Assembly: GCA_040882285.1 (NCBI GenBank)
Contig: JBBEBQ010000020.1
Span: 1-64,000 of the forward strand
Length of the DNA stretch: 64,000 nt
Direction of reading: 5' to 3'
From: Gemmatimonadaceae bacterium
Lineage (GTDB): Bacteria > Gemmatimonadota > Gemmatimonadetes > Gemmatimonadales > Gemmatimonadaceae
Positions 59,148-64,000 of this stretch are shown piece after piece (positions within the stretch are counted from its first letter, which is position 1; each line of letters begins with the position of its first letter). The notes below the pieces were generated by a model. That model worked only from the letters and a program-made list of their open reading frames with translations, ran no database searches and was not told the origin of the DNA. The translations under genes were made by a program, and so were the position numbers.

Positions 59148-59624
59148 CTACCTACTGTCTTTGACAGTGCGCCAAACATCTCGAGTGCTGCCGAGCAACG
59201 CACCGACGCCGTATCCGAGTAGAGCTCCGATCGCAGCGCCAGGAAGCGCCCCGCAATGAAGGCCACGACAGCGGTCGGCGCTGTCGTCGAGACCGTTGAG
59301 CTCATAGCCCGCGTACCCAAAGAACAGGGCTCCGGGAACGGCACCAACTACACCCCACCGCCGCGCCCGTGTGCCCTCGAACACTCGGAGACGAATTATC
59401 TGATTCTTCGCGACGGGGCCATTCCTCAAGTACAGGCTGTCCGGCCCGATTCGGATCAGCTTCCCGGAACGCTCGAGGCCAGCGGAAGTTTCAAGACGAA
59501 CCACCTGACGTACTCTGATCTGCTCGGTCAAGTCGGTCGCGCTCTGCCCTGGAGCCACCTGAGCGTCGGCAGCCGGGATCCCAGCCAGAAGCATCAAGCC
59601 GAGCAAAAGTCTCGATAGCTTCAT
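59148..59624 (-). CDS. exported protein with a glycine-zipper-like membrane segment
   Basis: 158 residues from ATG 59624 with AAGGTGG upstream. Signal peptide (LLLGLMLLAGIPAADA). Middle: SH3-like 'LETSAGLERSGKLIRIGPDS' beta strands. C-terminal glycine-rich helix 'GAAIGALLGYGVGALLG'. Seen in Gemmatimonadota-like genomes; function unknown. Divergent from the metH promoter. Confidence 0.7.
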   Translation of the reverse strand: MKLSRLLLGLMLLAGIPAADAQVAPGQSATDLTEQIRVRQVVRLETSAGLERSGKLIRIGPDSLYLRNGPVAKNQIIRLRVFEGTRARRWGVVGAVPGALFFGYAGYELNGLDDSADRCRGLHCGALPGAAIGALLGYGVGALLGSTRDVWRTVKDSR

Positions 59625-59672: not shown

Positions 59673-59701
59673 TTGCTCCCGAGCCGCCTCGCTACTATAG
59701 T
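59673..59701 (+). promoter_or_regulatory. metH promoter
   Basis: TTGCTC (59673-59678) and TATAGT (59696-59701) with 17-base spacing; transcript start near 59708, giving a leader of about 117 bases with a structured region. Confidence 0.55.
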
Positions 59702-59730
59702 TGTAGAGCAGCACGACATTTCGAAAGCCC

Positions 59731-59812
59731 GTGGCGATTTCAGGCAAATTGCGGCCACGTTAAACAACCGCTAAAGCGCCACGCCCGGCGCACTTAGCGC
59801 CCGGGCTTTTTT
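59731..59812 (+). promoter_or_regulatory. putative SAM-II/SAM-V-like riboswitch with terminator in the metH leader
   Basis: A P1-like stem GTGGC/GCCAC (59731-59735, 59754-59758) encloses GATTTCAGGCAAATTGCG; after it comes GTTAAA (59759-59764) and GCTAAA (59770-59775). SAM-II aptamers show GAUUUAA in the P1 loop and then GAUAAA and GCUAAA after P1, in the same order. Possible pseudoknot pairs are GGC/GCC and TTG/CAA. Then an intrinsic terminator: GCCCGGCGC/GCGCCCGGGC (59783-59791, 59797-59806) followed by six Ts. No + strand gene ends nearby, so this terminator controls metH itself. The GCGCC part of the aptamer tail could also pair with GGCGC as an antiterminator. Confidence 0.4.
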
Positions 59813-59825
59813 CATTTTTGAGACC

Positions 59826-62800
59826 ATGCGAGTGCCAGACATAAAGCTCCCGTACCTCGAAGCCCTCGACCGCCGCGTCCTCGTGTACGACGGCGCGATG
59901 GGGACCAACATCCAGCGCCACAACCTGACCGCCGATGACTTCGGCGGGAAGGAGCTGGAGGGGTGCAACGACTACCTGATCCTCAAGCGCCCGGACGTCA
60001 TCCAGGGGATCCACGAGTCGTTCCTCGCGGTCGGCTGCGACGTCGTGGAGACGTGCACCTTCCAGTCGACACCCCGCCGGCTGGCGGAGTGGGGACTCGG
60101 CGACAAGGTGCGCGAGATCAACGTCGAAGGCGCGAAGCTCGCCCGCGCGGCGTGTGACAAGTTCGCCACGCCCGACCGTCCGCGGTTCGTCGCGGGCTCG
60201 ATGGGCCCGACAGGCATGCTCCCGTCGAGCTCGGATCCGGCGCTGTCGCAAATCACCTTCGAAGAGCTGGCCGAGAATTACTACGAGCAGGCCAAGTACC
60301 TCGTCGAAGGCGGCGTGGACGTCCTGCTCATCGAGACTTCGCAAGACATCCTCGAGGTGAAGGCGGCGGTGACCGGCGTCGAGCGCCTGTTCGCGGAGCT
60401 CGGCAAACGCGTCGTCCTCCAGGTCCAGATCACGCTCGACACCAGCGGGCGCATGCTGCTCGGCACCGACATCGCCAGCGCGATGACGACGCTCGAAGCG
60501 CTGAACGTGGACGTCATCGGGCTCAACTGCTCCACGGGTCCGGAGCACATGCGCGAGCCGATCCGCTACCTCAGCGAGCACGCGACGCTGCCGATCTCGG
60601 TCATTCCCAACGCCGGCCTGCCGCTGAATACCGGAACCGGCGAGGCGATCTATCCGCTCGAGCCGGCGCCGATGGCGGAAGCGCTGTCCGAATTCGTGCG
60701 CGAGTTCGGCGTGCGCGTCGTCGGCGGCTGCTGCGGCACTACGCCCGAGCACCTCGAGAAGATCGTCGGCGCCGTGCGCGACGCGGAGAAGTCCGCAGTG
60801 CGGCCGGAGACGAACGGCAAGCGGCACGTGCCGCGCGTCAGCTCCGCGATGCGCGCGATCACGCTGCACCAGGACCCGCCGCCGCTGCTCGTGGGCGAGC
60901 GCGTGAACTCGCAGGGCTCGCGCAAGGTCAAGCGCCTGCTGCTCGCCGACGATTACGAAGGCATTCTCGACGTCGCGCGCGACCAGGTGGACTCGGGCGC
61001 GCACGTGCTCGACGTGTGCGTCGCGCTCACCGAGCGCGCGGACGAAGCCGAGCAGATGTCGAAGGTGGTCAAGCTGCTGTCCATGAGCGTCGAGACGCCG
61101 CTGGTGATCGACTCCACCGAAGCCGACGTCATCGCCGCCGCGCTGGAGCACGTCCCCGGCCGCGCGATCGTCAACTCCATCAACATGGAGAACGGCCGCA
61201 AGCGGATCGATTCGGTCGTGCCGCTCGTAAAGAAGCACGGAGCCGCGGTGATCGCGCTCACGATCGACGAGATCGGCATGGCCAAGACCAAAGAGCGGAA
61301 GCTCGAGGTCGCGAAGAAGATCTACGACATCGTAGTCGGCGAGTACGGCCTCGCGCCGGAAGATCTCATCTACGACGCGCTCACGTTCACGCTCGCCACC
61401 GGCGACGCGGAGTGGATCGACTCCGGGCACGAGACCATCGAAGGAATCCGCCTCATCAAGCGCGAGCTGCCGGGTGTCTCCACTATACTCGGCGTCTCCA
61501 ACGTGTCCTTCGGGCTCACGGTCGAAGCGCGAGCCGTGCTCAACTCCGTCTTCCTGCACCACTGCGTGCAGGCGGGATTGGACGCGGCGATCGTGAACCC
61601 CGCGCACATCCATCCGTACGCGGAGATCTCGCAGGAAGAGCGCGCGCTGGCCGACGACCTCGTCTTCAACAAGCGGGAAGACGCTCTCCAGCGATTCATC
61701 GAATACTTCGCGGCGCTCGGCGGTGACGGCGCCACCGAGGCCGTCGAGAAGGAGGATCCCACCGCGGGCATGTCGGTGGACGAGCAAATCCACTGGATGA
61801 TCGTGCACCGCAAGAAGGAAGGAATCGAAGCGCAGCTCGACGAAGCCGGAGTGCGCGAGAACCCCGTGCGGGTGCTCAATGAAGTGCTGCTCCCCGCGAT
61901 GAAGGACGTCGGCGACAAGTTCGGCGCGGGCGAGCTCATCCTGCCCTTCGTGCTCCAGTCCGCTGAAGTCATGAAGAAAGCAGTCAAGCACCTCGAGCAG
62001 TTCCTGGAGAAGGCGGAAGGCTACACCAAGGGCAAGGTCGTGCTCGCGACCGTGTACGGCGACGTGCACGACATCGGCAAGTCGCTCGTCAACACGATCC
62101 TGTCGAACAACGGCTACACGGTGTTCGACCTCGGCAAGCAGGTTCCCGTCAACACGATCCTCGAGAAAGCGGAGGAGGTAGGCGCGGACGCGATCGGGCT
62201 GAGCGCGCTGCTCGTGTCCACGTCCAAGCAGATGCCGCTGTGCGTGAAGGAGCTCGACAAGCGCGGGATGAAGATCCCGGTGCTGATCGGCGGCGCCGCG
62301 ATCAACCGCAGGTTCGGCCGCCGCGCGCTGTTCGTCGAGGGCGAGCGCGCGTTCGACGCGGGCGTCTTCTACTGCAAGGACGCGTTCGAGGGGCTGGAGA
62401 CGATGGACGTCCTCCAGGACGGGAACAAGCGCGCGCAGTTCATCGCGAAGAACCTCGACGACGCGAAGAACGACGTGTTTCTGCGGACGACGGTCGGCAA
62501 GGACATCGCCGTGGGCGACGCCGCCGGCGCGCGCAGCGACGTCACGTCCGGCAATCCGGTGCCGCGCCCTCCGTTCTGGGGCACGCGCGTGCTGCGCGAC
62601 ATCCCGCTCGACGAAGTGTTCGAGCTGCTCGACCTGGACGAGCTGTACCGGCTGCAGTGGGGCGCGCGCGGATCGGGCGAGCAGTACAAGGCCACCGTGA
62701 AGAACGAATTCGAGCCGACGCTCGCGCGGCTCAAGGCCGACGCGGCCGCGCGCAAATGGCTGGAGCCGCGGGCGGTGTACGGCTATTTCCCGGTGCAGTC

Positions 62801-63368
62801 CGTGGGCAACGACATCATCGTGTACGATCCGGCCGCGTACCAGAGCGACGGCGGCTCGCTGCGCGAGATCGCGCGCTTCCACTTCCCGCGCATGGTCGGC
62901 CGCGAGCGGCTCTGCCTCGCGGATTATTTCCGCTCCAGCGAGAGCGGCGACGTGGACGTGGCCGCGCTTCAGATAGTGACGGTCGGCGATGCGGCGAGCC
63001 GCGAGTTCGACAGGTTGCAGTCGGCCAACGAATACTCCGAGGCGTACTACACGCACGGGCTCGGCGTCGAGACCGCCGAGGCCGTCGCGGAATGGATGCA
63101 CCGGCGGATCCAGCACGAGCTCGGGCTCGACACCGGCAAGCGTTACTCCTGGGGCTACGGCGCGTGCCCGGACCTCGACGACCACGCCACGGTATTCAAG
63201 CTGCTCCCCGCTACTGAAGCGCTCGGGATGGGGCTGACGGAATCGTTCCAGCTGTTGCCCGAGCAGTCCACGGCCGCGATCATCGTGCACCACCCGGAGG
63301 CGAAGTACTACGCCGTGCGCGGCGCGGCCGACGCACCCGCCGGCGAGCCGGAGACCGCCGTTGTCTGA
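59826..63368 (+). CDS. metH: methionine synthase, cobalamin-dependent
   Basis: 1180 residues, all four MetH modules in order: homocysteine-binding ('VYDGAMGTNIQ', C-cluster 'VGGCCGTTPEHL'; residues 1-330), pterin-binding ('LLVGERVNSQGSRKVKRLL'; 350-640), B12-binding ('VYGDVHDIGKSLVNTILSNNGY' with the cobalt-ligand His in DxHxxG; 740-880), and the SAM-activation domain ('GYGACPDLDDHATVF'; 960-1170). Transfers methyl from 5-methyl-THF to homocysteine. PduO in this window handles the cobalamin cofactor. Leader as above. Confidence 0.97.
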   Translation: MRVPDIKLPYLEALDRRVLVYDGAMGTNIQRHNLTADDFGGKELEGCNDYLILKRPDVIQGIHESFLAVGCDVVETCTFQSTPRRLAEWGLGDKVREINVEGAKLARAACDKFATPDRPRFVAGSMGPTGMLPSSSDPALSQITFEELAENYYEQAKYLVEGGVDVLLIETSQDILEVKAAVTGVERLFAELGKRVVLQVQITLDTSGRMLLGTDIASAMTTLEALNVDVIGLNCSTGPEHMREPIRYLSEHATLPISVIPNAGLPLNTGTGEAIYPLEPAPMAEALSEFVREFGVRVVGGCCGTTPEHLEKIVGAVRDAEKSAVRPETNGKRHVPRVSSAMRAITLHQDPPPLLVGERVNSQGSRKVKRLLLADDYEGILDVARDQVDSGAHVLDVCVALTERADEAEQMSKVVKLLSMSVETPLVIDSTEADVIAAALEHVPGRAIVNSINMENGRKRIDSVVPLVKKHGAAVIALTIDEIGMAKTKERKLEVAKKIYDIVVGEYGLAPEDLIYDALTFTLATGDAEWIDSGHETIEGIRLIKRELPGVSTILGVSNVSFGLTVEARAVLNSVFLHHCVQAGLDAAIVNPAHIHPYAEISQEERALADDLVFNKREDALQRFIEYFAALGGDGATEAVEKEDPTAGMSVDEQIHWMIVHRKKEGIEAQLDEAGVRENPVRVLNEVLLPAMKDVGDKFGAGELILPFVLQSAEVMKKAVKHLEQFLEKAEGYTKGKVVLATVYGDVHDIGKSLVNTILSNNGYTVFDLGKQVPVNTILEKAEEVGADAIGLSALLVSTSKQMPLCVKELDKRGMKIPVLIGGAAINRRFGRRALFVEGERAFDAGVFYCKDAFEGLETMDVLQDGNKRAQFIAKNLDDAKNDVFLRTTVGKDIAVGDAAGARSDVTSGNPVPRPPFWGTRVLRDIPLDEVFELLDLDELYRLQWGARGSGEQYKATVKNEFEPTLARLKADAAARKWLEPRAVYGYFPVQSVGNDIIVYDPAAYQSDGGSLREIARFHFPRMVGRERLCLADYFRSSESGDVDVAALQIVTVGDAASREFDRLQSANEYSEAYYTHGLGVETAEAVAEWMHRRIQHELGLDTGKRYSWGYGACPDLDDHATVFKLLPATEALGMGLTESFQLLPEQSTAAIIVHHPEAKYYAVRGAADAPAGEPETAVV

Positions 63369-64000
63369 CGACGCCAAGCTCGCCCGCCTGCTCGACCCGC
63401 TGCAGGTCGTCGTGTTCGACGGCGCGATGGGCACACAGCTGTACGCCAAGGGCGTGTTCATCAATCAGTGCTATGATGAGCTGAACCTGCGCGCGCCCGA
63501 TCTCGTGCGCGCGGTGCACCGGTCATACGTGGACGCGGGCGCCGAAGTGATCGAGACCAATACGTTCGGCGCGAACCGGCTCAAGCTCTCGCAGTTCGGG
63601 CTCGGGGGGCAGGTCGCGGAGATCAACGAAGCCGCGGCGAAGCTCGCAGTCGAGGCCGGCGAAGGCGACGTCCTCGTCGCCGGCGCGGTCGGTCCGCTTG
63701 GCGTGCGGCTCGAGCCGTACGGACCGACCGGCATCGACGAGGCGCGCGCGGCGTTCGCCGAGCAGATGCGCGGGCTCGTCGCGGGCGGCGTGGATCTGTT
63801 TCTGCTCGAGACGTTCGCCGACGTGCACGAGATCGAGCAGGCCATGCTCGCCGCGCGCGAGGTGGACCGCGACATGCCCGTCATCGCGCAGATGACGATC
63901 GGGACCGACTGCCTGACGCCGTACGGCGTGAGCGCCGCGGACGTGGCGAAAGCGCTGGACGCGTTCGGCGCGGACATCATCGGGCTCAACTGCTCGGTCG
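63361..64000 (+). CDS. homocysteine S-methyltransferase domain protein, probably fused to methylenetetrahydrofolate reductase (partial)
   Basis: The frame opens at TTG 63361 (8-base overlap with metH stop) and runs to the window end with 213 codons. 'QVVVFDGAMGTQLYAKGVF', 'DAGAEVIETNTFGANRLKLS' and 'VAGAVGPLGVRLEPYG' are homocysteine-methyltransferase family segments. This type is usually the N-terminal half of a bifunctional Hcy methyltransferase/MTHFR. The reductase half, which would make 5-methyl-THF for metH, would lie past the window. No ATG is available near the start. Confidence 0.75.
   Translation, partial: MSDDAKLARLLDPLQVVVFDGAMGTQLYAKGVFINQCYDELNLRAPDLVRAVHRSYVDAGAEVIETNTFGANRLKLSQFGLGGQVAEINEAAAKLAVEAGEGDVLVAGAVGPLGVRLEPYGPTGIDEARAAFAEQMRGLVAGGVDLFLLETFADVHEIEQAMLAAREVDRDMPVIAQMTIGTDCLTPYGVSAADVAKALDAFGADIIGLNCSV

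Follow-up and report, generated by a model that had tools for sequence, protein, structure and literature searches.

A probable SAM-II riboswitch ahead of metH in Gemmatimonadota with predicted, mutually exclusive terminator and antiterminator folds

The metH gene of a Gemmatimonadaceae bacterium is preceded by a leader that most probably acts as a SAM-II riboswitch, attenuating transcription of metH, and probably also of the overlapping MTHFR-type gene, when SAM is bound. Based on sequence comparison and modelled folds we assign this reading a probability of roughly 0.87. The leader lies within a stretch of 64,000 nucleotides that was analysed as a whole (the window). A SAM-responsive metH leader had been suggested from the letters of the window (the sequence-only reading), and this is now supported by a match to the SAM-II family, by covariation of the P1 and P2 helices and by an aptamer, terminator and antiterminator that are all conserved across the family.

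The leader opens with a promoter-like TTGCTC-N17-TATAGT element on the forward strand (59673-59701), and the transcript probably starts near 59708. A strict sigma-70 scan gave no site; the pattern TTGnnn-N15-19-TAnnnT occurs upstream in 25 of 43 metH leaders, compared to 0.8 expected. The sequence-only reading had drawn the element from 59673 to 59825; the aptamer is narrower, at about 59724-59780, and 59673-59720 is occupied by the promoter and transcript start. The ATG of metH is at 59826. The gene (59826-63368, forward strand) encodes a cobalamin-dependent methionine synthase (TIGR02082 equivalog, 1143 bits) with the Pfam domains S-methyl_trans, Pterin_bind, B12-binding and Met_synt_B12, and relatives of the protein are found in Gemmatimonadetes/Gemmatimonadaceae MAGs with up to 95% identity. 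It is overlapped by 8 bases by the start of a gene for a bifunctional homocysteine S-methyltransferase/methylene-THF reductase (63361-64000, forward strand; NF006396, 746 bits in L213), which ends beyond the window. The upstream gene is divergent, on the minus strand with a probable start near 59624, and thus there is no upstream gene for the leader hairpin to terminate, as had been pointed out before.

An Rfam scan, proposed earlier as a check, identifies the aptamer. RF00521 (SAM_alpha, i.e. SAM-II), whose gathering score is 36, scores 38.0 bits over 59721-59794 of the forward strand, spanning positions 1-79 of the 79 in the model with an E-value of 5e-5 (both strands of the 64-kb window against all 4227 families); the excess of this single-sequence match over the curated threshold is only 2 bits. 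The order of the conserved words had been likened to both SAM-II and SAM-V, of which SAM-II stands, while SAM-V has no match at E <= 1 in a permissive scan. In the same scan SAM-SAH likewise has no match at E <= 1, the SAH families do not match the metH leader, and SAM-II long loop (RF01726) reaches 18.9 bits, far under its cut-off of 44. Within its own genome, a 2.89-Mb assembly, RF00521 is matched once, at the metH leader, and it is matched in none of 14 control genomes, none of which is a SAM-II carrier.

In the Rfam alignment the P1 stem (59730-59759) pairs CGTGGC at 59730-59735 with GCCACG at 59754-59759, and compensatory changes are seen in relatives. It encloses loop L1 (59736-59753) with GATTT (59736-59740), the P2a 5' strand GGC (59743-59745) and the P2b 5' strand GCG (59751-59753), the latter two assigned by covariation. 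GTTAAA follows at 59759-59764. The 3' strand of P2 together with the putative SAM pocket (59768-59780, all on the forward strand) comprises C59768, GCTAAA (59770-59775) and the P2a 3' strand GCC (59778-59780), as indicated by conservation in all leaders and by P2 covariation. Every element that the sequence-only reading had named is present, the downstream hairpin with its six T included. The window has the core words GATTT, TTGC and GCTAAA, as do nearly all relatives, and the element precedes a methionine or SAM biosynthesis gene, here metH (TIGR02082). By family match and conserved structure the metH leader is a genuine SAM-II member.

This is further supported by its distribution. With a phylum covariance model built from 28 rows of phylum members, one of them the window, we searched 80 named metH loci. 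Of the 47 Gemmatimonadota-type loci, 46 have the aptamer immediately upstream of metH, compared to 0 of the remaining 33, which derive from Chloroflexota, Dormibacterota, Rubrobacter and one contig labelled Proteobacteria. A lone weak extra match (L092) lies within the metH match on the opposite strand. Among 200 evenly drawn Gemmatimonadota genomes, RF00521 is detected at E <= 0.001 in 137 and above cut-off in 120. No SAM-II match was obtained in 32 whole genomes of other phyla, a comparison that lacks a positive control and is weak alone.

Covariation in related leaders, which had also been named as a check, is seen for both P1 and the P2 pseudoknot. On metH leaders 97.5% of cells pair (97.5-97.9% across alignments), and a shift of the 3' partners by one, two or three columns lowers pairing to 26-60%. 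Two-sided changes are present in P1, P2a and P2b: P1 changes from C-G to G-C and from U-A to A-U in Longimicrobia-type leaders, P2a from G-C to A-U on metH leaders, and the variable P2b pair is G-C, A-U or C-G in the mixed phylum set. The latter is canonical or G-U in 127 of 140 distinct leaders (G-C 61, C-G 27, G-U 23, A-U 15, U-G 1). Longimicrobia-type SAM-II variants located before metH in L076, L078, L089 and L093 have a P1 of GGTGG/CCACC or CGAGG/CCTCG, with P1 and ATTT set two bases further apart, and score 24-33 bits with model R1.

The aptamer is followed by an intrinsic terminator (59783-59812, forward strand) comprising a stem at 59783-59806 and six T at 59807-59812, which a terminator scan picks up as well. 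A terminator hairpin with T-run is found in 42 of 43 Gemmatimonadaceae metH leaders when one or two bases are allowed before the T-run. The mean terminator energy of metH leaders is -15.2 kcal/mol, compared to -7.8 kcal/mol after shuffling of the part before the T-run. The window transcript up to 59799 is predicted to fold as P1 plus a hairpin of CGCUAA(A)GCGCC with GGCGC(AC)UUAGCG (-15.7 kcal/mol), in which 59769-59774 pair with 59794-59799 and 59776-59780 with 59787-59791 (overall 59769-59799, forward strand). Until the terminator 3' arm has been transcribed, this antiterminator belongs to the predicted minimum-energy structure. It consumes GCUAAA and GCC, the same nucleotides that the SAM-II pocket and P2 need. 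Masking of the pseudoknot nucleotides gives the terminator instead, with -16.9 kcal/mol. In the predicted folds antiterminator and terminator are mutually exclusive and of near-equal energy. The minimum-energy fold of the whole leader, which pairs 59724-59731 with the terminator 3' arm, was not counted in the switch because most relatives are without the AAAGCCC flank.

The inner antiterminator stem is supported by compensatory changes. Its 5-mers change in step among relatives, GCGCC occurring with GGCGC or GGUGC, GCGCU with AGCGC or GGCGC, CCGCC with GGCGG, and GCGCG with CGCGU. As related leaders are not independent, counts of these compensatory changes are not probabilities. The mean pairing score is 8.97 with the own partner and 7.81 when partners are swapped from leaders with a different 5-mer. 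Terminator-arm pairs were counted by script, as MAFFT sets some rows one base out of register. The outer GCUAA/UUAGC half is shared by the window with L032 and L126, its nearest relatives, but not with most metH leaders. A terminator loop complementary to GCTAAA is seen in two sequence groups (13 of 18 and 13 of 23 leaders, about 4 expected in each). As a general rule such complementarity was rejected, with 6 of 73 against 14.4 expected in the Gemmatimonadaceae metH/metF group, where antiterminator duplex energies compared to shuffles also give a mean z of -0.62 in a test that is too blunt for this group. Leaders in which L1 starts with GCCGC have a second antiterminator design, with L1 itself pairing to the terminator arm: L1 GCCGCC goes with GGCGGC, and GCCGCG with CGCGGC.

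At low SAM, GCUAAA of the pocket and GCGCC of the P2 3' strand would base-pair to the terminator's loop and 5' arm, and with this antiterminator formed the polymerase would continue into metH. At high SAM, the ligand would stabilise the P1/P2 pseudoknot, which occupies the same GCUAAA and GCC, leaving the terminator hairpin free so that transcription would stop at the T-run with metH off. That SAM binds, that transcription terminates and that control runs in this direction is what we infer here, and SAM-bound as OFF is the best model since compensatory changes support the antiterminator/terminator switch. A SAM-II switch might instead act mainly on translation or RNA stability, with the hairpin being a constitutive terminator or a stabiliser as for Sinorhizobium meliloti metA, where the SAM-II terminator is not predicted to answer to SAM (PMC9373788). 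Some leaders of the same phylum (L005, L006, L008, L017) would fit such control, as their start codon lies about 8-11 bases after GCTAAA and a terminator was not found; judged from this layout they are probably translational SAM-II switches. In the window, however, P2 cannot cover the ribosome-binding site of metH, whose start lies 46 bases downstream of P2 and past the terminator. In addition, the antiterminator is built in part from aptamer nucleotides, and it co-varies. We therefore consider translational or stability control of this leader unlikely.

Even less probable is a SAM-II-like aptamer that recognises another ligand such as SAH, or one of relaxed specificity. While metH belongs to the SAM cycle, in which SAH switches also serve (PMC4239095), the invariant SAM-II words are retained, SAM-II rejects SAH (PMC1273637), and the SAM-SAH and SAH families are without a match. 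The small margin over the RF00521 cut-off might speak for a chance resemblance, in which a GC-rich leader of the usual kind happens to have a hairpin that looks like a terminator. This is highly improbable given the covariation and the recurrence of the element before nearly every Gemmatimonadota-type metH.

SAM-II binds SAM and not SAH, and terminators are present in many members (PMC1273637). In alpha- and betaproteobacteria no other class has been noted so often together with regulatory terminators, and SAM-II also occurs in gammaproteobacteria and Bacteroidetes (PMC2258182). For the S. meliloti metZ switch, termination upon SAM binding is predicted (PMC9373788). The metH leader shares the core words, P1, the P2 pseudoknot and a terminator after P2 with the alphaproteobacterial switches (the metA motif; Agrobacterium metA, Sinorhizobium metZ), and in a rhizobial SAM-II leader (L248) the P2 3' strand likewise competes with a terminator arm. 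It differs in that the window antiterminator additionally captures GCUAA, in the host phylum Gemmatimonadota and in its target, which is metH with the MTHFR-type gene, whereas the proteobacterial switches precede metA, metX operons or metY/metZ and not metH (PMC4239095). Compared to the Rfam consensus, L1 of the window is three bases shorter. SAM-II long loop (RF01726) and SAM-V are likewise H-type pseudoknot SAM aptamers, and the window fails both models. SAM-I (S box, RF00162) binds the same ligand and often uses a terminator/antiterminator platform before methionine genes, but has an unrelated four-way-junction fold; the metH leader has no match to it, while other Gemmatimonadota families use SAM-I.

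The sequence-only reading regarded attenuation of metH in this group as new. Attenuation is the usual mode of SAM-II and does not count as such; in a search of openly licensed papers we found no paper on SAM-II or SAM_alpha together with Gemmatimonadota and no description of SAM-II on metH, and Rfam may already contain Gemmatimonadota members. The novelty is modest and lies in target and phylum, the riboswitch class and attenuation mode being already known. To Proteobacteria and Bacteroidetes, the groups for which SAM-II is described in the literature cited here (PMC1273637, PMC2258182), this adds a major soil phylum in which the main target is metH rather than metA or metY. The value of this is as a useful annotation, the mechanism itself being no surprise, and the large set of aligned leaders opens the expression platform as well as the aptamer to co-variation study.

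Among the genes following 120 phylum leaders, of which representatives only were checked by protein family match, metH-like homocysteine methyltransferases (64) are the most frequent, followed by metF (14) and metY/metB-type genes (8); rarer targets are threonine synthase (5), ATP-grasp-like proteins (5), panB (4), metX-like genes (4), and a single aspartokinase and others. On balance the data favour, with less confidence than for the metH switch, a phylum-wide SAM-II regulon that is centred on metH and metF and reaches threonine synthase, aspartokinase, homoserine dehydrogenase and panB. In this regulon two or more co-varying antiterminator designs would have evolved independently, one pairing the P2 3' strand or pocket with the terminator and another pairing the L1 loop with the terminator arm, and some lineages would combine SAM-II with SAM-I in the same genome.

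SAM-II leaders are located before threonine synthase (L113, L128, L149, L153, L177), aspartokinase (L180) and homoserine dehydrogenase (L122, L158), so that the switch would also cover the homoserine branch. The panB gene (ketopantoate hydroxymethyltransferase), an unexpected SAM-II target that draws on the same one-carbon folate pool, is found behind strong aptamers (52-61 bits) with terminators in L002, L011, L014 and L114. An ATP-grasp-like protein follows SAM-II in the second leader of L002 (forward strand), L156, L190, L195 and L209, with a weak RimK-family match for the protein of L190.

In 2007 no species with both SAM-I and SAM-II was known (PMC2258182). Both classes are matched in 15 of the 200 Gemmatimonadota genomes, and several families carry mainly one class. 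Strong matches to both in one genome are seen in eight members of one genus of family f7 (G042, G046, G053, G055, G059, G071, G148, G162) and in G006. The genome of the window has no SAM-I-IV match; a near-threshold SAM-I site (RF00162, 42.3 compared to 44.4 bits) at G000:C4:32919-33040 (L214:3920-4041, minus strand) precedes a short ORF of unknown function. Tandem SAM-I-IV matches 100 bases apart are present in another Gemmatimonadaceae genome (L215 and L217; G056:C5:24660-24979).
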